From Alphaproteobacteria bacterium (lineage in GTDB: Bacteria > Pseudomonadota > Alphaproteobacteria > Bin95), in contig JAJEIH010000001.1 in assembly GCA_022827685.1 (NCBI GenBank), positions 1 through 61,273 on the forward strand: DNA of 61,273 nucleotides, in the 5' to 3' direction. Shown here piece by piece: positions 2,091 to 14,136 of the stretch (position 1 is its first letter; the number at the start of each line of letters is the position of its first letter). Made by a program: the position numbers and the translations under genes. Under the pieces are notes generated by a model, which made no database searches, had not been told where the DNA came from, and worked only from the letters and a program-made list of their open reading frames with translations.

Positions 2091-2198
2091 GCGGAGGGAC
2101 CGGCCGGGCAACGCCGCTTGCCGGGAGAACGGCGGGCGGCGGCGCCCGGACAGCCACCAACAGAGGGAAGGCCGCAACGGTCCGGAACGGGGCGGCAG

Positions 2199-2229
2199 AA
2201 TCAAAGGTCCGAAAATCAGACCTTTGATT
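2199..2229. promoter_or_regulatory. Perfect 11-bp inverted repeat in gene-free DNA
   Basis: AATCAAAGGTC at 2199-2209 and GACCTTTGATT at 2219-2229 are exact inverted repeats around a 9-nt AT-rich spacer. The stretch 2096-2358 holds no gene I can support, so this is its clearest structured element. It could be an operator, a partition-like site or, read on the plus strand, a weak terminator (TTTT follows). Only the symmetry is observed. Confidence 0.5.
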
Positions 2230-2359
2230 TTCCGGCCGCGCCGGACGTCCCTGACGGCGTCCGGAGGACCGGAACTCCGGGGCGTATCGCGGGAGATCGG
2301 CAGCCGGGAAGCCGGCGGAAAGCCCGATGGCGGATCGATGCCGCCAGCGGACCGCCACG

Positions 2360-2393
2360 AAAAACCCCTCCCCGGCCTCGTGCCGGGAAGGGG
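2360..2393 (-). terminator. Intrinsic terminator after the coiled-coil gene
   Basis: The minus strand reads CCCCTTCCCGGC, a short loop, GCCGGGGAGGGG, then TTTTT. It lies 26 nt downstream of the stop at 2420. It is a variant of the cassette family with a shorter, cleaner stem. Confidence 0.85.
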
Positions 2394-2419
2394 CGGGAAC
2401 GGCGCCGGCAGGGAACCGG

Positions 2420-2938
2420 CTATTGCGCCGGGGGAGGCTCCGGCTGTTCGGTTGCAGGCTGCGGCGCCCCGGGGTAGTGGGCGCGGACGAAGCCGGCCAG
2501 CTCGCGATGGTTGGCGCGGTTCCCGGCGATGCCGGCGGCCAGGCGCTTCGTGACGGCCGACTGCCGCGCCTCGCTGGCTTCCAGATCTGCCTTCACCTCG
2601 TCGATCCGGGCACCGAGTGCCTTCTCAACCCTGTCGATCCGGTCCGTCAGGCGTTTTTCGACCCGGTCGATCCGATCCGAAAGACGTTTCTCGGTCGTTG
2701 CCAGGTCGGCCTTCACCTCGGCGATCTGTGAGGTCAGGCGCTGCTCCGTCATCGCAAGCTCCGTCCTGAAGCCTGCAATCCCGACGGTGAAGCGGTTGTC
2801 GAAATAGGTGATCATAGCGCCCAGAAACGTCAGGAAGGCGCCCAGCACGATGGCGATAGGCATGACCGCCTTCCAGCTGCCGTCACCGGGGAGGGCGCTG
2901 CGTTGCGGGGCCGGGGAAGGGGTTTCGGGAGAGGTCAT
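2420..2938 (-). CDS. Membrane-anchored coiled-coil protein
   Basis: A 172-aa protein. A Pro/Ser-rich cytoplasmic start is followed by one membrane segment at about residues 25-46 (VMPIAIVLGAFLTFLGAMITYF). A long amphipathic coiled coil follows (about 60-140) with repeated units of the type EKRLxDRIDRVEKxL. The tail is Pro/Gln-rich. The layout resembles the DUF1640/CCDC90-like and phage-island coiled-coil proteins. The start at 2938 was chosen because AGGAGACGAGG precedes it and the upstream frame overlaps a terminator. Function unknown. Confidence 0.75.
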   Translation of the reverse strand: MTSPETPSPAPQRSALPGDGSWKAVMPIAIVLGAFLTFLGAMITYFDNRFTVGIAGFRTELAMTEQRLTSQIAEVKADLATTEKRLSDRIDRVEKRLTDRIDRVEKALGARIDEVKADLEASEARQSAVTKRLAAGIAGNRANHRELAGFVRAHYPGAPQPATEQPEPPPAQ

Positions 2939-3014
2939 GGGCCTCGTCTCCTGTCCGTTGCGGAGTATGGGATCGGAACGCGCCGAAGGCAAGCCGCGCC
3001 CGCATCGACACGCC

Positions 3015-3041
3015 CGGCAAACCCCTTCCCGACCTTTGCCG
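3015..3041 (-). terminator. Terminator-like hairpin, cassette copy 4
   Basis: CGGCAAA and TTTGCCG form a 7-bp inverted repeat enclosing the cassette core CCCCTTCCCGACC. It lies about 70 nt after the stop of the Toprim gene at 3110. A T-run after the stem is weak, so termination is less certain than for copies 1 and 2. Confidence 0.55.
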
Positions 3042-3109
3042 TCCGGGCGGGCACGGAAGCGCCGGCGGCGAGGCCCCGGAGTTCGCGGCCGCAATCCCGC
3101 TGTCCGTTG

Positions 3110-4135
3110 TCAGCCGAACAGTCCCTGGGACGCGAGCCTTGCCCGGAACCGCGCGGGACCCAGCGCCAGCAGCTCGTCATTGGCGTCCTTCGCACGGGGG
3201 ACGATCCGGTCGAGCAGCAAGGCGGAGCCCGCATGTTCGCGGCAGAGCGCGACCCAGGCGTTCTCGCCTGCCAGGTCGCGGTCCTGGACGAGGGTCACGC
3301 GCCGGATGCCCGGGGGCAGGCCGACGCGGTGGACGCGCCCGGCGGAGATCGCGGCGGCGACGGCGATATCCCGGCGGCCGCCTGCGCCGAGCGCGCCGGC
3401 AATGGCGAGTGCATCCTCGACGCCTTCGGTCAGCACCAGGTGCCCCGCCGCGCCGGCGGGCCAGCGCACGGCGCCGGAGAACAGCCGCCCGCTGGTGCGC
3501 TTCGGGTCCGGGATCGGGGCCTTGCGCCCGTCATCGGCGAGGAATATCCGCTGCAGGCCCTCCAGCGTGCCGTCCAGCGCGCGGATCGGCGCGAGCAGCG
3601 CCGGCAGCTCGCATTTCTCGCCGTCCACCTGCACCCAGACATCGGGGCGGAAACGCAGCCCTGCGGCGCCGGCGTCCTCCAGGGCGAGCCCGCGGGCGGC
3701 GAGATAGCGCCCGGCCGGGTTGTCGGGCCGGACCGGCTCCGCGCCCGCCAGCACCCGTTCCAGGCCCTTCTGCGCATCGGGTGCGCCGTTCTGCCGGCGG
3801 GGCCCGCACCGGGGGCGCTCATATTCCGGCAGGGCGAGGAAGCGGCGCGCCTCGTCGGCCGCTTCTCCGATGCTGTTGCAGTTGCGCACGGCGCGGATCA
3901 GGTCGAGGGGCCTGCCCCGGTCCTTCGGGTTCGCCCAGTCCCTCCAGTATCCGCGCCAGCGCCCGGCCAGGTTGACCCGCAGCGACGCGCCCTCCTCGCC
4001 GGCCGTGCTGCCCACCTGCCAGTAATTGCCGTTCCGCTTGCCGTTCGGAAGGTAGTGCCGGCAGACCGCCTCGATATCGGCCGCCAGCATGGCGGACAGG
4101 TCCTTCAGGCTGTGGGTCGTCGGATCGGAGGGCAT
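3110..4135 (-). CDS. Toprim-domain primase-like protein
   Basis: A 341-aa protein of the DUF7146/Toprim type found on plasmids and prophages. A Toprim fold is supported by the EGVEDAL motif (residues 237-243), holding the catalytic Glu, and the DRD pair at 285-287. The N-terminal part (WQVGSTAGEEGASLRVNL, then WRDWANPKDRGRPLDLI) resembles the region preceding Toprim in phage primase/helicase proteins. No helicase domain is fused. The start at 4135 has GGGAGG a few bases upstream. In this island it is likely to act in element replication by making or handling primers; that role is inferred from the family. Confidence 0.85.
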   Translation of the reverse strand: MPSDPTTHSLKDLSAMLAADIEAVCRHYLPNGKRNGNYWQVGSTAGEEGASLRVNLAGRWRGYWRDWANPKDRGRPLDLIRAVRNCNSIGEAADEARRFLALPEYERPRCGPRRQNGAPDAQKGLERVLAGAEPVRPDNPAGRYLAARGLALEDAGAAGLRFRPDVWVQVDGEKCELPALLAPIRALDGTLEGLQRIFLADDGRKAPIPDPKRTSGRLFSGAVRWPAGAAGHLVLTEGVEDALAIAGALGAGGRRDIAVAAAISAGRVHRVGLPPGIRRVTLVQDRDLAGENAWVALCREHAGSALLLDRIVPRAKDANDELLALGPARFRARLASQGLFG

Positions 4136-4708: not shown

Positions 4709-6289
4709 TCATGCGCCGTCGGCGGCATGGCGGGCGATCAGGTCGAGGATCGCCGGGATGTCGGGGACCGTCTCGACCGCGACGCGTTCGGGGCCGTTCG
4801 AGGGGCGGATCCCGATGGCGGCGATCAGGTCGCGGACGGCAAGCAGGGCCTCCTCGCGCCGTTCGGTTCGCGGGCCATCGGGGACGGCGCCGCGAAACCG
4901 GGCGAGATGGTCCCGGACGAACGCTTCGATATGGAAGCCGGGAGGCGGCGGCGCCGTCGGCAGCCTGTCGAGCTCCGCGGACGCCTCGTTTCGCTGGCGT
5001 TCGAGATCGAGGAGGCGGTCGCGGATGCTCGCGGAGGGAATGCCGGCTTCGATGGCGGCGACCAGGCGGCCGATCCCGGCATTGGCCACCTCGGCCTGCT
5101 GGCGCAGCTCCCGGCGCCGCGCGGCGGTCTCGCGCTCGGACCCGGCGAACATGTCCCGCCAGTCGCGTTCGGGGGACTGCATCCATGCGAAGAGCTGTCC
5201 GACGGCGAGGCATTCCAGCTTCTCGCGCCGGATGCCCCTGTTGTTCGAGCAGCTCTCCGGGTGGAGGCGCCGGGTCTTGCAGCGATAGTGGCCGAGCCCG
5301 GCAATCACCAGGCGGGAGCCGCAGACGCCGCAGCGGAGCCTGGCCGTCAGCGGATAGGCGGCCTTGCGGCTTGGCGTCACCACGGCCAGGTGGCGCTTCT
5401 TGCGCCGCTCCAGCTCGTCCTGGACGGCGTGCCAGGTCTCGTCGTCCACGATCCTCATTCCGGGGGCTTCGGCAACGACCCATTCCTCCGGCGGAACGGG
5501 AACGGAGTGGCGCCGCCCGGTGACGGGATGGCGCCTGCTGCGGCTGCGGCCGTACACCAGCACGCCGCGGTAGATGTCGAAGCGGAGTATCCCGTTGCTG
5601 CCGCGCCCGCGTATGACCTCGGCGCTCCAGGGCTTGTCGTTGGGCCCGACGACGCCTTCCCGGTTGAGAATGCGGGCGATCTGCTGCGGGCTCATGCCGT
5701 CGAGGTAAAGCCGGTAGATGCGGCGGACCACCCCGGCCTCGTCGAGGTCGATCATCCGCAGGCCCCGGACGGCCTTGCCGCTTTCGGAGATGTAGTTGGC
5801 CATGCGGTAGCCGTATATGCGGTGCCCCATGACCCGGAGGTCGTGGAGGGCCTCGATCTGCCCCCGGCGCGTCTTGGCGCCGATATTGTCGATGACCATC
5901 TCGCTCACGGCCCCCTTGATATGCGCATGGAGGGAGTCGACCTGCCCGTCTTCCAGGCTGTGCAGGTCGATACCCAGGAACCGCAGTTCGCGGTAAAGCC
6001 ACGCCATGTCGGCGGTGCTCCTGGCGAGCCGGTCCAGGCCCTCGACGCAGACGCTGTCGAAACGCTGCGCGCGGGCATCCTCGAGCAGCTGGCGAAGCCC
6101 CGGGCGCAGCTGCATGGCCGTGCCCGAAAGCTCCGGGTCGGTGTATTCGTCCGCGATCACGCCGCCCAGATCGGCGACGCGGTCGCGGCAGAGGCGGAGC
6201 TGGCCCGAGATCGACGTCATCTCCTGCAGCGGCGAGGAATAGCGCGCATAGATCGCGAAGCGCGCAATGTCGGCGGTATGCCCGTTCAT
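4709..6289 (-). CDS. Large serine recombinase
   Basis: A 526-aa site-specific recombinase. The resolvase domain spans residues 10-150, with the catalytic motif YARYSS (nucleophile Ser18), DPELSGT at 51-57 and EGLDRLARS at 83-91. A recombinase domain follows, then a zinc ribbon with Cys320, Cys323, Cys337 and Cys347, and a coiled-coil segment around 370-430. Size and layout match phage and integrative-element integrases that act between attP and attB. The start at 6289 has ACAGG close upstream. It probably moved, or still moves, the island; I could not identify its attachment sites in the window. No truncation is visible. Confidence 0.93.
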   Translation of the reverse strand: MNGHTADIARFAIYARYSSPLQEMTSISGQLRLCRDRVADLGGVIADEYTDPELSGTAMQLRPGLRQLLEDARAQRFDSVCVEGLDRLARSTADMAWLYRELRFLGIDLHSLEDGQVDSLHAHIKGAVSEMVIDNIGAKTRRGQIEALHDLRVMGHRIYGYRMANYISESGKAVRGLRMIDLDEAGVVRRIYRLYLDGMSPQQIARILNREGVVGPNDKPWSAEVIRGRGSNGILRFDIYRGVLVYGRSRSRRHPVTGRRHSVPVPPEEWVVAEAPGMRIVDDETWHAVQDELERRKKRHLAVVTPSRKAAYPLTARLRCGVCGSRLVIAGLGHYRCKTRRLHPESCSNNRGIRREKLECLAVGQLFAWMQSPERDWRDMFAGSERETAARRRELRQQAEVANAGIGRLVAAIEAGIPSASIRDRLLDLERQRNEASAELDRLPTAPPPPGFHIEAFVRDHLARFRGAVPDGPRTERREEALLAVRDLIAAIGIRPSNGPERVAVETVPDIPAILDLIARHAADGA

Positions 6290-6392
6290 GCCCTGTCCTT
6301 CGGGTGTCGAAAAACCGGACGCTTTGGCCACTGGCGCCCGCCCCTGCAACCGGGAAAGCCGCCGCGTCCGGTGGATAACCGGCCAGGCGCCG

Positions 6393-8045: not shown

Positions 8046-8582
8046 TCAGAACTGCGGCCAGTCATCGTCGAGCGGCGCCAGAACCCGGTCGATAGTTGTT
8101 TCCCCGCGGAAGCGGGGGATGAAACGGCCATCGTCGGTCCTTTCCGTGGCAGCGGCGTCCTCGTCCGCCTCCGGCATGTACGCCGCCGCGATCACTGCCG
8201 CGCGATTGTCGCTGAAAACCCGACGAAGCAGTTCAACGGCCCGCTCGCGCTTGCCCTCGCGAGCCATCGCCCGCAGACGTACCGCCAGCAGCGCGCGCAC
8301 GTCCTCGGCGAGACCGGGAGATGCATAGCCCCGGAAATTCATGTTGCGGGCAGCCTCCGACATCGCGCGGGCGATGGTGTGTTGCTGATACGCATCGAGC
8401 ACCAGGGATCGGGAGGCCGACGTCTTCGACGAAAGGTCCACGGTCAGGGCGCATTCCCGGAACCATGCCGAAGCGGACTTTCCGCGCTCCTTCGCCTGGG
8501 CCCGGATTTCGTCCCATTCCCTGTCGGTCAGCGAAATCGTGTGGTTCATGCCGGACGTCGTCTTGCGCGGCTTCTTCGTCAT
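8046..8582 (-). CDS. Par-operon paralogue, ribbon-helix-helix-like (copy 1)
   Basis: A 178-aa protein sharing its layout with the products at 8925 and 9383. A basic start is followed by SLTDREWDEIRAQAKERGKSASAWF, a pattern typical of ribbon-helix-helix or MobC-like proteins. Then come LVLDAYQQHTIARAMSEAA and a C-terminal helix pair ending VFSDNRAAVIAAAYMPE. The start at 8582 overlaps the stop of the gene at 8579 (ATGA). It has the longest tail of the three, ending in acidic and aromatic residues. Possible roles are auto-regulation, partition accessory or relaxosome accessory; no relaxase is in the window. Confidence 0.7.
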   Translation of the reverse strand: MTKKPRKTTSGMNHTISLTDREWDEIRAQAKERGKSASAWFRECALTVDLSSKTSASRSLVLDAYQQHTIARAMSEAARNMNFRGYASPGLAEDVRALLAVRLRAMAREGKRERAVELLRRVFSDNRAAVIAAAYMPEADEDAAATERTDDGRFIPRFRGETTIDRVLAPLDDDWPQF

Positions 8583-8911
8583 GCTCCGTCCCCGTCATGG
8601 GCAAGACACAGGAAGCGGACCGCCTCCCACACCGAGGCAACCGCTTCAACGTCTCCGGGACCGTGAACCGAAATCCGCCCCGACCGGAGAACGGTCAACG
8701 CGTCCTTGGCAAGGCGGCCCTGTTCGGCTTTCGCCAGCACGAGGGAGTGCCCGGGCAGCTCCGGCGCCCTGCCGGCTCCCTCGTCGGCCGCGCGCCTGCA
8801 GCACAGATAGCCGAAGCGCGAGATCGGCAGCTTCGCCTTCCGGGCCCGCCTGCGGATCCGCTCCCACTCATCGAGCGGGCCGTAGATGCATCGCTGTCTC
8901 GAAAGCTTCAC
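8579..8911 (-). CDS. Small RHH-like protein in par operon
   Basis: A 110-aa protein. A GTG start at 8911 is preferred because GGGAGGAG lies 7 nt before it; an ATG at 8953 would overlap the upstream gene by 29 nt and has no such site. The core LDEWERIRRRARKAKLPISRFGYLCC resembles the RHH-type region of its three neighbours but lacks their C-terminal VFGEERAAVI block. SLVLAKAEQGRLAKDALTVL is a second helix. It sits between copies 1 and 2 of the paralogue family and is coupled to the gene at 8046 by an ATGA overlap. Probably a diverged or shortened family member. Confidence 0.65.
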   Translation of the reverse strand: MKLSRQRCIYGPLDEWERIRRRARKAKLPISRFGYLCCRRAADEGAGRAPELPGHSLVLAKAEQGRLAKDALTVLRSGRISVHGPGDVEAVASVWEAVRFLCLAHDGDGA

Positions 8912-8924
8912 CCCGGCTCCTCCC

Positions 8925-9386
8925 TCATCCCCGGTTGTCGTGGGGGCGCTCACCCGGCAGCTCCGGCGTTGCCGGGGTTTCGGGCATGAACGCGGCCTCG
9001 ATCACAGCCGCACGCTCCTCGCCGAACACGGTGCGGAGCCCTTCGAGTGCCTCCTCCCGCCGTCCCTCCAGGACCATCGCCTCAAGCCGCTCCCGAAGCA
9101 GTTCCACGGCCAGTGCGCCGAAACGGGCAGACACTTCGTCATCCACGTCTTCGGCCAGCTCTCGCGCAACACGGGCAATGCGGCGCTGCTGCTCCTCGTC
9201 CAGGACCAGCGGCGGGGCGGCGGTTTTCTCCGGGGCCGACAGATCGACGGTCGTGACGCATTGGCCCCACCAGGCCGATGCCGACATGCCCGCCGCCTTC
9301 GCCCACGCCTTGATCTGGGCCCACTGAGCGTCCGTATAGGATACTGAGTGTCCCGTGCCCGGCTTGCGTTTGCGCGCCTTCTTCAT
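8925..9386 (-). CDS. Par-operon paralogue, ribbon-helix-helix-like (copy 2)
   Basis: A 153-aa protein closely similar in pattern to the products at 9383 and 8046: SYTDAQWAQIKAWAKAAGMSASAWW, then LVLDEEQQRRIARVARELAEDV, then LRTVFGEERAAVIEAAFMPETP. The start at 9386 overlaps the stop of the upstream copy (ATGA), and GGAGGA lies just before it. Conservation of the SASAW turn and the final VFGEERAAVIxAAF block across the copies suggests tandem duplication. No catalytic motif is seen. Function unknown; the position after parB suggests an accessory role in maintenance. Confidence 0.72.
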   Translation of the reverse strand: MKKARKRKPGTGHSVSYTDAQWAQIKAWAKAAGMSASAWWGQCVTTVDLSAPEKTAAPPLVLDEEQQRRIARVARELAEDVDDEVSARFGALAVELLRERLEAMVLEGRREEALEGLRTVFGEERAAVIEAAFMPETPATPELPGERPHDNRG

Positions 9387-9889
9387 GCGTCCTCCCTGAA
9401 CTCGGGGCGTCCGGCGTCATTGGTCCGGGCGGAGTTCGCGGCCGGCTTATCCTGCGTTGCCGACGGGGTTTCGGGTATGAACGCGGCCGCGATCACAGCC
9501 GCACGCTCCTCGCCGAAAACCTCCCGCAGCAACTCCATCGCCCGCGCCCGCCGGCCCTCCTGCACCATCCTCCGCAGCGGCTCCTCCACCAGCGCGCGAA
9601 TATGCGCCTGAAGGGACGCCACGCCGTCCGCATCCAGACCCACGGCCAGTTCCGCCATGGTATCGGCAATGGCGCGCTGCTTTTCCGCGTCCAGGACCAG
9701 CGGCTGCGGCCCCGGCCCCTTCGCCGACGGGTCCTCGTGCAACGCACACGAAACCCACCAGGCCGATGCCGACATGCCGGCCCGCGCCGCGCCCTCCCGG
9801 ACCAGTTCCCACTCCTCGTCGGTGCAGCAGATCGTGTGCGTCGCGCCCTTCTTGCTGCGCGCGCCCGGCCTTGTCCGCGTCTTCTTCAT
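9383..9889 (-). CDS. Par-operon paralogue, ribbon-helix-helix-like (copy 3)
   Basis: A 168-aa protein and the first gene after the parB remnant. Its start at 9889 overlaps the parB stop (ATGA). It carries the same blocks as copies 1 and 2: CCTDEEWELVREGAARAGMSASAWW, LVLDAEKQRAIADTMAELAVGL and LLREVFGEERAAVIAAAFIPETP. The N-terminus is strongly basic. Since it was coupled to intact parB, the IS insertion upstream may now reduce its expression. An upstream in-frame start (10033) exists but lies inside parB and has no support. Confidence 0.72.
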   Translation of the reverse strand: MKKTRTRPGARSKKGATHTICCTDEEWELVREGAARAGMSASAWWVSCALHEDPSAKGPGPQPLVLDAEKQRAIADTMAELAVGLDADGVASLQAHIRALVEEPLRRMVQEGRRARAMELLREVFGEERAAVIAAAFIPETPSATQDKPAANSARTNDAGRPEFREDA

Positions 9890-10379
9890 GTCCGTTCCTC
9901 TTCCGGCGAGGCGGCGCCGGCGCCGGGCCGTGCGCGCAAGGCTTCGATGAGCTGGCGGCGCTGGTGTCGGTCGATAAGCAAGCTGAGGAGTTCGAGTGCC
10001 AGGACTTGCTCGTGCTTGGGAATGGGGTGCCATGCCGCTTCCAGTCGAGCGAAGAGTTGCCCGCGTGTGGGTGGGCGGGCCGGCGCTGCAGGAGTTTCCT
10101 TCTGCAACAGGGCAGACAGTCGCTCGGGGGGCTCGTCGGCCTCGCGCAGACGCTGGAGGACGCGCTGTTGCCGGGCTTCCGAAAGGCCGGCGAGCCGGTA
10201 GAGATCGCCTTCCCGGCGGGCGATCGGGGTGCCTTGAAGCTCGTCCTGCAGTTCGGGCAGGATACGCTTGCCGATGCGCAGCGCACGCTCGACCGTACCC
10301 TTGGACATCGAGGTCAGATCTGCCGTCTCTTCGACAAACGAAGGGGGTGACGAAAAATCAAAACCTAAATTTTCGGTTT
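9886..10379 (-). pseudogene. parB: parB, 3' part, separated by IS1595 element
   Basis: This is the C-terminal 162 codons plus stop of the partition gene (from ENLGFDFSSPPSF onward), including the helix-turn-helix region ETADLTSMSKGTVERALRIGKRI. The fragment has no start of its own; a frame beginning inside the IS adds 25 foreign residues. Joining codon GAA at 13558-13560 to AAT at 10371-10369 restores an uninterrupted frame. The 8-bp sequence TTCGGTTT at 10372-10379 is the target duplication. A residual HTH-bearing polypeptide might still be made. Confidence 0.88.
10372..10379. repeat. 8-bp target-site duplication, left copy
   Basis: TTCGGTTT directly precedes the left inverted repeat and is repeated at 13558-13565 directly after the right inverted repeat. 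Eight base pairs is the usual duplication length for IS1595. Confidence 0.93.
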
Positions 10380-10404
10380 GGGGATTATATAGTAGTTTAC
10401 CCAA
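10380..10404. repeat. Left terminal inverted repeat of IS1595 element
   Basis: Begins GGGGATTATATAGTAG and ends TTTACCCAA. It pairs with 13533-13557 with three mismatches in the centre. Confidence 0.93.
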
Positions 10405-10418
10405 GGCGTTGACGGGAC

Positions 10419-10580
10419 CTATTCGGTCCCGCGCTCCCGTTTGAGGTAGTCCCAATCCTTCTTCGGCGGCCCGGCCATGATGGCGCGTGCGATATTCTCC
10501 GGCGTATCGGGTATCGGATCCGGCATGGGCTTCTCCACCGGCCGCCCGCGCGCCCGCTTCGGCTTGTCTTTGTCAGTCAT
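10419..10580 (-). CDS. Small IS1595 accessory ORF, 53 aa
   Basis: A short basic and Pro-rich protein (KPKRARGRPVEKPMPDPI, then ENIARAIMAGPPKKDW). The ATG at 10580 is preferred over one at 10604 because GGAGATC precedes it at good spacing. The upstream ATG overlaps the end of the methyltransferase gene, so coupling is likely. Small proteins with this KKxWxYL-type ending are, from memory, often found beside IS1595-type transposases. Its role is unknown; regulation of transposition is one guess. Confidence 0.7.
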   Translation of the reverse strand: MTDKDKPKRARGRPVEKPMPDPIPDTPENIARAIMAGPPKKDWDYLKRERGTE

Positions 10581-10600
10581 CGTGGGATCTCCGGTTTCGT

Positions 10601-12040
10601 TCATCGTCCTCGGGTCTCATGGGGCAGCTTCGCCCGCTCCTCGTCGAGGAACAGGCCCCAAGCCTTCGCCCCCTTGCGCCCGTTGCAGTTGCCGCAAAGG
10701 CCGATGCGGTTGAGCGCGTCGTTGTCTCCGCCGCGCACCTTCGGGATGCGGTGGTCAAGGGCAAGGTCCACCGCCCGAAGGCTCTCCGCGTCGCAGTAGG
10801 GGTTGGCGCACTGGCGCCCCTGCCGCGCCCATAGAGCCTGCCGCAGCTTGTCGTCCGGAATATTCGGGATGTCGGTCCGGCGAAGCGTCTTCCGCACCGT
10901 GACCGGCGTATCCACCATGTTGAGGCCGGTTTCGTCGGCAAGGCGGTCCAGCGTCACCCGCTCCGCCACCGGGTCAATGTCGATGCCGACCCACTGGCGC
11001 TGCAATTGCTCGGCGGCTACGCAGGTGGTCGCGCACCCCGCGAACGGGTCCAGCACCGTGTCGCCGGGGTCGGTCGCGCACTCGATCAGCCGCCGGTAGA
11101 GCGCAACCGGCTTGCGCGTTGCCCACTCGACATCGTTCGATTCCGCCTGCCCGACATCGCTCCAGATGTCATCGCGCTTCCGGCCCTGCTGCTCGTCGAG
11201 ATACCGCTTGAAGCGCGGAACGCGCCCAGGGGCGGCCTGAACGACGCGACCGGCGTCATGGGCCGCCTGCATACGCTCCCGCGTCCAGCGCCAGACCCGC
11301 GTCACGCCAAGAAACTCGTAGGTCAGGTTCGGACGGTTGCCTTCCGGATGCGTCAAGTTGTCGAGCTGGTAGCGTCTCCCCCCCCCCTCAATCTTGTCAT
11401 ATTGCGCCAGTGTCTTGGCGTCGAGATTGGCGAGGTCATAGGGTTCATAGGACGGGTTCCACTTCCACTTCCGACTCTTGCCGTAGGCGAACACCGTGTC
11501 GCTGTTGTTCGGCAGCCGCCGGGTCGGATAGCCCTTCGCGGTGGTCCGGCGGCGCGTGATTTCATTGATGAACAGCGCCCGTCCAAACACGGCGTCGAGC
11601 AGCAGCCGGAGATAGGCATTCGCCTCCGTGTCGCACTGGAGGAACAGAACGCCGGTCGGCTTGAGGACGCGGTGCATTTCGACAATGCGCGGGGCCATGT
11701 AGGCCAGATAGGCGGCGATGGAGTTCTTCGCCCCGGTGCTGACCCTGCCGGTGCGGTGGTGAACCCGGCCGCCCTCGATGACTGCCGCCGCCTCGATGAT
11801 CTCCTTGATCGCCGGATGGTCCGACGCGATGAGGTCCTGCCATTCGTCCGTCACCTCGTCCCAGCGCCAGCGGTCATCGAACCGCTGCGCGGCTGACCGG
11901 GAGCCGAGCGGCGCATTGAAGACGCGCTTGGCGTTGAACGGCGGGTCCGTCGCCACGCAGTCCACGCTCTCGCTGTTCATGCCGCGAAGGATGTGGATGT
12001 TGTCGGCGACGAACAGCGACCGGTTGCGCCAGTTGGTCAT
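10601..12040 (-). CDS. DNA methyltransferase fused to HNH domain
   Basis: A 479-aa protein. The catalytic motif DPPF is at residues 32-35 and the SAM-binding motif DPFAGCATT at 331-339. This order (IV before I) defines beta-class amino-methyltransferases acting on adenine N6 or cytosine N4. A C-terminal HNH module follows: CANPYC (411-416), DHRIPKVRGG (429-438), then LCGNCN (448-453), fitting a zinc-bound HNH nuclease. The start overlaps the transposase stop (ATGA, 12037-12040), so it is co-transcribed as IS cargo. It could act as a self-contained modification and cleavage enzyme, or the HNH may be structural. Specificity cannot be read from sequence. Confidence 0.9.
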   Translation of the reverse strand: MTNWRNRSLFVADNIHILRGMNSESVDCVATDPPFNAKRVFNAPLGSRSAAQRFDDRWRWDEVTDEWQDLIASDHPAIKEIIEAAAVIEGGRVHHRTGRVSTGAKNSIAAYLAYMAPRIVEMHRVLKPTGVLFLQCDTEANAYLRLLLDAVFGRALFINEITRRRTTAKGYPTRRLPNNSDTVFAYGKSRKWKWNPSYEPYDLANLDAKTLAQYDKIEGGGRRYQLDNLTHPEGNRPNLTYEFLGVTRVWRWTRERMQAAHDAGRVVQAAPGRVPRFKRYLDEQQGRKRDDIWSDVGQAESNDVEWATRKPVALYRRLIECATDPGDTVLDPFAGCATTCVAAEQLQRQWVGIDIDPVAERVTLDRLADETGLNMVDTPVTVRKTLRRTDIPNIPDDKLRQALWARQGRQCANPYCDAESLRAVDLALDHRIPKVRGGDNDALNRIGLCGNCNGRKGAKAWGLFLDEERAKLPHETRGR

Positions 12041-13020
12041 GCCACCGGCCTTGCGCCGGAAGGCAGTCCGTTGTCCGCAATGAGGTCCCGATACCGCAGC
12101 CGCTTCCCGGCCATGCCGCCGGCGATGGACCGCATCATGTCCAGCGTGTCGAGGGACCGGATGTTGTGCCGGCCTGCGGCCTCGGCAACATAGAGGTCGA
12201 GGTGCTTCTCGCTGAACTTGTGGAAGACGCCGACGAAGCTGCGTTTGAGGCCCGACCAGAAGCTCTCCATGCCGTTCGTCGAGGCCATGCCCCGCACGAA
12301 CTCCTTGGCGGAATGCTTCACCGACTCATGGGCGTATTCGGGCATTCCAGCGTAGGCCGGCGCTTCGTCGGTGTAGAGCGTCGCGCCGGGCTCGACATGC
12401 GCCCGCACGAAGGACTGGAGCGCGCTCGCGTCGGTTGCCTCCATGCGGCGGGCCGCAACGCGATTGCTCGCCCGGTCCTTCACGCCCGCGACGGCCGCTT
12501 TCCCCACGGCCCCGCGTCCCGTCCCGGCGAGCTCTTTCCGCTTCCGGTTGCTCATGTTCTTGCGCTTGCCGCCGATGTAGGTCTCGTCTGCTTCCGCCGG
12601 GCCGGTGAACATCGCCGCCTTGTCGGTCCATGTCTCCCGGATGCGGTGCGCCAGATGCCAGGCCGTCTTCTGCGTCACCCCAAGGTCGCGGTGGAGCTTC
12701 ATGCTCGACACGCCCTTGAGGTTCGTCGAGCACAGGAAGATGGCAATCGCCCAAATCTGGAAGCCGAGCGGCGAGGAATGCATCAGCGTGTCGGTCTTGA
12801 CGCTGAAATCCTTCCGACAGTCCCGGCAGCGGTAGGGCTGCGGCTTGCGCGTCTCGCGCTCCTGAATGTTGACCGACCCGCACTTGGGGCAGCACACGCC
12901 TTCCGGCCAGCGCGTCTTCACGAACCAAGCCTCGGCGGTCTCATCGTCCGGGAACATCCGCGTCAGGTCCACGAAGGTCATGCCCTTGCGGAAGTGTTTG
13001 CCGGGAGCGTTGCGAGCCAT
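12037..13020 (-). CDS. IS1595-family transposase
   Basis: A 327-aa transposase of the IS1595 family. An N-terminal zinc ribbon is formed by Cys44, Cys47, Cys65 and Cys68. The catalytic core has ADETYIGGK (Asp145), LYTDEAPAY (Asp218) and the block TNGMESFWSGLKRSFVG, whose Asn249/Glu252 region supplies the third residue, followed by AEAAGRHN. All motifs are intact. AGGAGG lies before the ATG at 13020 and a good promoter lies upstream. Its stop overlaps the methyltransferase start. Confidence 0.95.
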   Translation of the reverse strand: MARNAPGKHFRKGMTFVDLTRMFPDDETAEAWFVKTRWPEGVCCPKCGSVNIQERETRKPQPYRCRDCRKDFSVKTDTLMHSSPLGFQIWAIAIFLCSTNLKGVSSMKLHRDLGVTQKTAWHLAHRIRETWTDKAAMFTGPAEADETYIGGKRKNMSNRKRKELAGTGRGAVGKAAVAGVKDRASNRVAARRMEATDASALQSFVRAHVEPGATLYTDEAPAYAGMPEYAHESVKHSAKEFVRGMASTNGMESFWSGLKRSFVGVFHKFSEKHLDLYVAEAAGRHNIRSLDTLDMMRSIAGGMAGKRLRYRDLIADNGLPSGARPVA

Positions 13021-13044
13021 TTCCTGCCTCCTGATTACGGAAAC

Positions 13045-13073
13045 AGATTACCCCAATGCGGCGTTGCCGGCAA
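13045..13073 (-). promoter_or_regulatory. Sigma-70-type promoter for transposase operon
   Basis: On the minus strand TTGCCG (13073-13068) and TAATCT (13050-13045) are separated by exactly 17 nt. The transposase start is about 25 nt downstream of the -10 box. It lies in the gap between the divergent IS genes. Confidence 0.7.
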
Positions 13074-13120
13074 GAGGAAAATGGGTAAAATGCAGAAAAA
13101 ATCACGCTGCCGGAGTCGCC

Positions 13121-13540
13121 ATGTTGGACCATCAGCCGCCGCCGGAATGGGTCCGGGGCCGGGCCGAGTGCAATCTCGACATGATCTTCGACGCGCTGCA
13201 TCAGATCGTCCAGCGCGACGTGAAGCAGTTCAATGAACTCTACGACCGGCAGCGGCAGGGACGGCGGTTTCAGGTCCACGAAAACGGCGGCGGCTGCGAC
13301 CCGTCCTTCCGGGTCGTGCTCGATGCGGATATGGACCGGCCGCCGCAGGTGGTCTTCCGGCTGTCGCGGTCGGCGATCCTCATCAACGGCGGCGGGCAGA
13401 TATTCAATGTGCGCCCGGAATGGGACGGGAAACGCTGTCGGCTGAGCGTTGGCGAGCGGTCTTACAGCGAGCCGTGGGAAATCAGCCAACTCGCGCTGGC
13501 CGGGTTCCTGTTCGGGCCAGCCGATGAGCCGCTTGGGTAA
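13121..13540 (+). CDS. IS1595 accessory protein, 139 aa, divergent
   Basis: The protein begins MLDHQPPPEWVRGRAECNLD and has a helical first third followed by beta-rich sequence (FQVHENGGGCDPSFRVVLDAD, VVFRLSRSAILINGGG). I recognise no family. The ATG at 13121 has GGAG 7 nt upstream. It is transcribed away from the transposase. Its last codons and stop lie inside the right inverted repeat (13533-13557), so it evolved as part of the element. Its role is unknown. Confidence 0.75.
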   Translation: MLDHQPPPEWVRGRAECNLDMIFDALHQIVQRDVKQFNELYDRQRQGRRFQVHENGGGCDPSFRVVLDADMDRPPQVVFRLSRSAILINGGGQIFNVRPEWDGKRCRLSVGERSYSEPWEISQLALAGFLFGPADEPLG

Positions 13541-13557
13541 AGTGGTATATAATCCCC
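13533..13557. repeat. Right terminal inverted repeat of IS1595 element
   Basis: Reads TTGGGTAAAGTGG and then TATATAATCCCC; inverted match to 10380-10404 at 22 of 25 positions. It overlaps the end of the plus-strand accessory gene. Confidence 0.93.
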
Positions 13558-14136
13558 TTCGGTTTTGATTTTCTCCTGGTATTCCAAACTCTTACGGTCG
13601 CCGCCATGGCGGGCTTCCGGGTACAGTTTGTTGCGGAGTTCCTCGCGCCTGGCAACGAAGCGGGCGCGGTGAAGCGGCGTGAGTTCCGAGCGGATCAAGT
13701 TCTCGTCGACCTCGACCAAGGCGATCTCGTCCGGGCTCGGATCGTCGAGCACGAAGGCCTCGATCCGGCCCCAGCCGAGCTTCTTCGCGGCCTCGATCCG
13801 GTGCCGTCCCGCGACCAGCGCAAAGCCGCCCTCGTCCAGGCCGCGGTCGTATTCGCCGGTCTCCGGATCGATCCCGAAATTGTGGCGGACCTGGATCGGG
13901 TTCTGAAGGCCGATCCGGTCCATCGACTCCGTGAGGCGGGCGACCGCTTCATCGTCGACCTCGCGCAGGCGCGGCCCGATGCGGATCTGCTCCAGGGCGA
14001 TCGGCCAGGTGCTCCGCTGGCGGGCCGTCGAGGGGTCGAACCGGGACGCCGCTTCGGCCGCCTCGGGGTTGCGGCTGCGCCAGTCCTGGAGACGGTGGAT
14101 GAGCGCGCCGCCCCCGCTGTTTGCGCGGCCGCTCAC
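13558..14136 (-). pseudogene. parB: parB, 5' part, interrupted by IS1595 element
   Basis: These are the first 193 codons of the partition protein, starting at a GTG whose bases overlap the parA stop (GTGA at 14133-14136). It holds the ParB N-terminal domain: LEQIRIGPRLREVDDEAVARL, the motif AGRHRIEAAKKLGWG, and DENLIRSELTPLHRARF. Reading through into the IS adds a foreign tail and stops at 13462. With the IS removed, the frame continues into 9886-10371 to give 354 residues. TTCGGTTT at 13558-13565 is the right target duplication. Partition by this pair is probably lost. Confidence 0.9.

Follow-up and report, generated by a model that had tools for sequence, protein, structure and literature searches.

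What might an insertion sequence (IS) gain by carrying a DNA methyltransferase joined to a nuclease domain? The question is raised by an IS1595-family element in a 61,273-bp stretch of contig JAJEIH010000001.1 (Alphaproteobacteria bacterium, assembly GCA_022827685.1), the whole of which we call the window. The element, 3,178 bp at window positions 10380-13557, holds four genes: a transposase, a methyltransferase-HNH gene and two small open reading frames (ORFs), O53 and O139 (Table 1). We propose, with a probability of about 0.6, that it is a transporter IS (tIS) lodged in a parB-like gene, and that its cargo is a one-protein restriction-modification (R-M) system that would stabilise both the element and the plasmid carrying it.

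A bounded element in a partition gene

Terminal inverted repeats (TIRs) of 26 bp, identical at 23/26 positions, opening with GGGGATTATATA and bearing a terminal GG, close both ends of the element, and an exact 8-bp target site duplication (TSD), TTCGGTTT, stands on either side of it. When the element and one copy of TTCGGTTT are excised in silico, a parB-like frame reads through the junction. Taken together, the TIRs, the TSD and an empty site that keeps its frame are far beyond chance. The first-pass annotation had placed an IS1595 element at 10419-13540; the element itself stands, while the span was slightly short of the ends that the TIRs and TSD define.

The rejoined target frame matches ParB_N weakly (E 5.5e-5, 23.6 bits, just below the Pfam cut-off of 26.3). 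Because this parB-like target lies downstream of a ParA-type ATPase gene and near small genes that match the mobilisation protein NikA, the replicon is probably mobile, whether a plasmid or of another kind, and the element has probably inserted in its partition gene. The whole element is present as a single copy in its own genome.

The transposase matches DDE_Tnp_IS1595 (PF12762, 3.4e-35), Zn_ribbon_IS1595 (PF12760, 6.3e-9) and the NCBIfam model NF033547 (8.4e-50, 169.6 bits against a cut-off of 75), and looks complete. IS1595 elements have TIRs beginning with GG and 8-bp target duplications (PMC8101967); with these features, the DDE domain and an N-terminal zinc ribbon, the element belongs to the family. 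A tIS is defined by passenger genes that lie within its TIRs and take no direct part in transposition, and the passengers named for IS1595 tIS are transcription regulators, as in ISNha5 (PMC11891212). The methyltransferase-HNH gene lies between the TIRs and is assumed to have no role in transposition, and the earlier description of an IS1595 element with passengers thus holds. So does the coupling it reported: the transposase stop overlaps the methyltransferase-HNH start by ATGA at 12037-12040.

A methyltransferase and an HNH domain in one chain

The cargo protein matches N6_N4_Mtase (PF01555, 1.8e-40) and HNH (PF01844, 1.6e-6), as well as the PADLOC models for Type II/III methyltransferases, and its relatives with solved structures are N4-cytosine and N6-adenine methyltransferases that include CcrM, MboII and RsrI. 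The motifs noticed at first pass, DPPF (residues 32-35) and DPFAG (residues 331-335), are present and, like both domains, look intact; their order is that of the beta class, with motif IV ahead of motif I, and the C-terminal HNH comes after them. Conservation of the catalytic residues, on which that annotation had made its case depend, is complete in the 10/10 relatives aligned, for D32-P33-P34 and D331-P332-F333-G335 in the methyltransferase and for D429, H430, N444, C449, C452, N453 and K456 in the HNH domain. Between the window protein and relatives at 72-78% identity, the nonsynonymous rate (dN) is 0.12-0.21 against a synonymous rate (dS) of ~0.9-3, alike in the two halves. Both halves are therefore under purifying selection, the strength of which cannot be read from a dS so close to saturation.

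The transposase-coupled slot in sister elements

We gathered IS1595 elements from the genus, class and phylum (loci labelled L), setting their limits by TIR and TSD. Overlap with the transposase stop is usually by ATGA, and the gene that overlaps it often encodes a methyltransferase, with a nuclease partner following or fused. The cargo ranges from a C5 methyltransferase with GIY-YIG (L081), a methyltransferase with HNH (L090) and a methyltransferase-Mrr fusion (L099; TIR 22/22, TSD 8/8) to N6_Mtase with Methylase_S, scored by PADLOC as Type IIG (L125; 4.5e-98), a methyltransferase with a BglII-like restriction endonuclease (REase; L149) and an orthodox Type II methyltransferase (5.2e-55) with a Type II REase (5e-13; L098). 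A D12 methyltransferase is joined in L086 by a 255-aa ORF without an assigned function and stands in L148 without an identified nuclease; in L139 a methyltransferase-Mrr fusion lies elsewhere in the element and not at the transposase slot. A clear TIR and a clear TSD mark the window element, L082, L086, L099, L125, L139 (TSD 7/8), L149 and L013; in L081 and L090 the TIRs alone are present, and adjacency is the evidence for L098 (TIRs not found), L148 (TIRs incomplete) and L094 (no second end). The IS1595 family thus seems to have served repeatedly as a carrier of unrelated R-M systems.

The same coupled slot holds P63C proteins, O139 relatives or tiny ORFs in other elements, and is therefore a general slot rather than one specific to R-M: the position after the transposase is a fixed feature, and R-M is one frequent occupant.

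Two comparisons bear on this recurrence. In a tree of 55 transposases, methyltransferase or R-M cargo is present in 12 rows and requires 12 state changes, no fewer than random labels, and the well-supported branches force at least 8 of the 12. Gain and loss cannot be told apart by the change count itself, but cargo types so unrelated speak for gain on repeated occasions. Among ~35 PF01555 loci in eight genomes of the genus (a count that leaves out C5, D12 and gamma-type cases), four (the window element, L082, L099, L094) are cargo within or next to IS1595 transposases, versus ~0.3 expected from the fraction of the genomes near such transposases. In a flank-based count, 122 kb of cargo windows yielded 11 methyltransferase-like ORFs and 236 kb outside yielded 2, but this count is biased in that the cargo proteins were themselves the queries; we rely on the Pfam-based count.

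Several other observations concern IS1595 elements. P63C-type passengers stand directly after the transposases of L126, L127, L128 and L155 (Pfam-checked for L126), and their N-termini resemble the O53 motif described below (for example IPDAFESVADAML), as if the small ORF had been fused to the cargo. L087 (reverse complement, 4763-6355) and L080 (reverse complement, 2140-3564) carry lipoprotein-like ORFs of 530 and 474 aa, respectively, in which the signal peptide is followed by a Gly-rich stretch; the longer of the two has no Pfam match. At L088 (~1490-2203) an IS1595 element is apparently inserted at or in a methyltransferase gene; the methyltransferase fragment ends at the left TIR, looks like a broken target gene and was not counted as cargo.

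Transposase and cargo reassort

The first-pass annotation had asked whether the four genes form a fixed module. The complete set was found once, in its own genome, and nowhere else in the genomes searched; methyltransferase, transposase and small ORFs recur apart in other elements, and the idea of a fixed module is not supported. The methyltransferase-HNH protein occurs in at least three other IS1595 settings. In Silicimonas a 5,271-bp element (L012 and L013; TIR 22/24, duplication CATCCTTG) has a 71%-identical methyltransferase-HNH at the end opposite an oppositely oriented, 55%-identical transposase. In the same genome as the window, a 3,009-bp element (L082; TSD 8/8) has a transposase 72% identical to that of the window element and a methyltransferase-HNH only 34% identical, and in an Acidimicrobiia metagenome-assembled genome (MAG; L019) a TIR, a transposase start and a methyltransferase-HNH share one frame. 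Transposase and cargo are therefore reassorted. L094 adds a cut-off methyltransferase-HNH copy beside a transposase, the second element end being absent.

The closest methyltransferase-HNH proteins, 71-78% identical, come from Dehalococcoidia/Chloroflexota, Silicimonas and an unclassified bacterium, followed at 54% by Synechococcus SB0668, presumably a sponge-associated MAG. Homologues outside IS1595 ends (L009, L010, L011, L014, L015, L016, L161-L164) make up most of the family, so that the suggestion of a methyltransferase tied to such ends fails for the family as a whole. We considered whether the Chloroflexota and Synechococcus MAG copies are IS1595 elements that lack a transposase, and rejected this, as no TIR motif was found near the methyltransferases of L009, L010, L011, L014, L015 and L016. 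A viral origin was likewise rejected: a scan of viral contigs gave no relative, and the matches to phages, at up to 47%, fall mostly in the methyltransferase half.

O53 and O139 as accessory genes

Both small ORFs are present as first described, the divergent O139 with its stop in the inverted repeat, and neither matches Pfam, NCBIfam or PHROGs. The O53 family (A1) is recognised by the motif IPDTPENIARAIM or ATPEMVARALL. Among 95 genomes, confident copies are confined to the genus and to G078 and G088, both of which have close IS1595 transposases. Many copies are neighbours of a transposase or immediately precede a right-hand TIR, several matches having neither within 1.5 kb, and the cargo of O53-bearing elements varies from methyltransferase-HNH to Type IIG to none. 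Relatives of O139 at 28-31% identity stand directly after the transposase in each of three other elements, and one further match is weak. Searches of its profile against PDB sequences gave weak, unconvincing matches only, and structure prediction a low-confidence, unusable model (pLDDT 52). O53 and O139 are best read, from their sequence context, as accessory genes of an IS1595 lineage and not as parts of the R-M system; that they act in transposition is a guess.

Other small ORFs recur in IS1595 elements. A third type, of 70-99 aa with a motif like FLLTPPAAKQLAxLLE, is found in L085, L087 and L094. In more distant elements (L129, L131, L132, L136, L138, L152, L154, L156-L160) a tiny ORF follows the transposase, with motifs such as FGEALxRFxxTKPEEVE or RRDELLRQLLHTPPQPRP, and is possibly a family-wide accessory gene.

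What maintains the cargo?

We hypothesize that the methyltransferase-HNH protein is a single-chain R-M enzyme in a Type IIC-like arrangement, which would methylate one sequence and cut DNA that lacks the mark. Co-expression from the transposase transcript could lay down the mark early after entry into a new replicon. Cells that lose the element or the plasmid would then be killed or disadvantaged and unmarked incoming DNA attacked, which would allow the element to persist; O53 and O139 possibly act on transposition, outside the R-M system. We favour this reading because unrelated methyltransferases are paired with unrelated nucleases, and such pairing would not be needed if the enzyme served the element by marking its own DNA. 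That idea, in which the methyltransferase marks the element or its ends and so sets the access or timing of the transposase, as Dam does for IS10, while processing of ends or target DNA falls to the HNH domain, draws on the translational coupling to the transposase and on the sister element (L148) whose methyltransferase has no identified nuclease. However, GIY-YIG, Mrr, BglII-like, Type II REase and HNH domains recur beside unrelated methyltransferases, and control of transposition requires none of them; elements with similar TIRs (L085, L089, L095, L097) have no methyltransferase, and the coupled slot also holds genes of other kinds, such as P63C and the O139 family. Marking of its own DNA is thus the weaker idea, and we consider it unlikely.

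The enzyme might instead spread by protecting its host from phages, with the element as carrier and no special benefit to it, an account that differs from the stabilising R-M system mainly in the beneficiary. R-M is enriched in sponge metagenomes (PMC5099237) and in Tn7-like transposons, 26% of which carry known innate defence systems (PMC8649781), and the presence of methyltransferase-HNH genes alone on chromosomes would also fit. The coupling to the transposase and a replicon with parA and NikA-like genes fit a benefit to element or plasmid at least as well, and we regard host defence as a rather unlikely explanation, although sequence does not decide which of the two benefits maintains the cargo. 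That the cargo was simply caught by chance, its association without function, agrees with the single copy and with the varied cargo of sister elements, lipoprotein-like and unknown ORFs included. We find this highly improbable given that methyltransferase-nuclease cargo recurs scattered over the transposase tree, that PF01555 cargo exceeds chance, and that catalytic residues are conserved with dN below dS.

Several points weigh against a stabilising R-M system. The predicted PF01555 and PF01844 domains share a single 479-aa ORF, just as Type IIC enzymes combine both domains in one chain, but in most known Type IIC enzymes (a majority, not a strict rule) an N-terminal PD-(D/E)XK domain precedes a gamma-class methyltransferase (PMC4081073). 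The window protein departs from that order, and we therefore say that it may work like a Type IIC enzyme rather than file it as a member; among characterised enzymes we found none in which HNH follows a beta-class methyltransferase. Structure prediction for the protein gave a low-confidence, unusable model (pLDDT 41). Most of its close relatives are solitary among chromosomal genes in other phyla, and the family is in this sense independent of the element. The R-M association is rarer outside the clade of the window element, many IS1595 elements have no R-M cargo, and the annotation of eight inspected IS1595 plasmid loci contained none, one of these records being without any annotation.

Table 1. 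Features of the IS1595-family element and its insertion site (window coordinates)
Feature	Position	Strand	Evidence
Target site duplication TTCGGTTT, left copy	10372-10379		Flank comparison
TIR GGGGATTATATAGTAGTTTACCCAAG, end distal to transposase start	10380-10405	+	Inverted repeat
O53, 53-aa ORF at cargo end, motif IPDTPENIARAIM	10419-10580	-	Family found next to IS1595 transposases/ends with differing cargo
Beta-class DNA methyltransferase with C-terminal HNH (~residues 415-458), 479 aa	10601-12040	-	Pfam, alignment
IS1595-family transposase, 327 aa, zinc ribbon and DDE domain	12037-13020	-	Pfam, NCBIfam
O139, 139-aa divergent ORF, stop inside TIR 13532-13557	13121-13540	+	Relatives 28-31% identical
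TIR GGGGATTATATACCACTTTACCCAAG, transposase-start end	13532-13557	-	Inverted repeat
Target site duplication TTCGGTTT, right copy	13558-13565		Flank comparison
parB-like target gene, N-terminal part, start uncertain	13558-14135	-	Empty-site frame, ParB_N match
parB-like target gene, C-terminal part	9886-10379	-	Empty-site frame, ParB_N match

Just downstream of the interrupted parB-like gene, at 8046-9907 on the reverse strand, four small genes lie in tandem with short overlaps. At least three are paralogous and NikA/MobC-like (NikA-like E 1.7e-6, 0.005 and 3.3e-7), and a C-terminal motif like VFGEERAAVIEAAFMPET is common to three of the four.

Relation to known mobile systems

Mobile R-M systems and tIS are themselves known, and what we provisionally regard as new is R-M cargo in IS1595 elements. 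R-M systems on mobile elements were reportedly described by Furuta et al. in 2010. Tn7-like transposons use a multi-protein transposition machinery, unlike elements of the window type, which are 2-6 kb long and have one transposase gene and one main slot for cargo. The two are alike in that Tn7-like transposons are enriched for R-M and other defence cargo (PMC8649781). IS activity also mobilises R-M genes, which are believed to stabilise whatever carries them (PMC3031569, PMC4176335), likewise in IS-flanked composite transposons (Takahashi et al. 2011). In these known cases the R-M genes lie between two IS copies or are inserted with long duplications, whereas here they lie inside one IS, coupled to its transposase. 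IS1595 tIS such as ISNha5 share with the window element the zinc-ribbon and DDE_Tnp_IS1595 transposase, GG TIRs, 8-bp TSD and passengers inside the TIRs, but the passengers named for them are transcription regulators rather than a methyltransferase-HNH; where methyltransferase passengers are mentioned, it is for an IS1380-family element (PMC11891212). In the open-access literature, to which our search was confined, we found no report of IS1595 as an R-M carrier.

Implications

If this pattern holds, the carriers on which R-M systems move include minimal IS elements as well as plasmids, phages and large transposons. R-M systems would then have a definite path by which to spread from one phylum to another, and one could test here whether a very small selfish element uses R-M to persist. 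The methyltransferase-HNH architecture is one whose specificity could be read from methylation data, and two unannotated small-protein families are now linked to IS1595, with a possible role in transposition that can be tested. A broader proposal, which we hold tentatively and rate somewhat below an even bet, is that of "R-M transposons": an IS1595 lineage whose transposase-coupled slot has been repeatedly refilled with unrelated methyltransferase-nuclease systems, with the O139 family and the O53 family, the latter marked by its TPEN/TPEE motif and placed towards the far end, serving transposition. Were this true, R-M would, beyond plasmids and large transposons, be a general way for a minimal element with a single transposase to persist.

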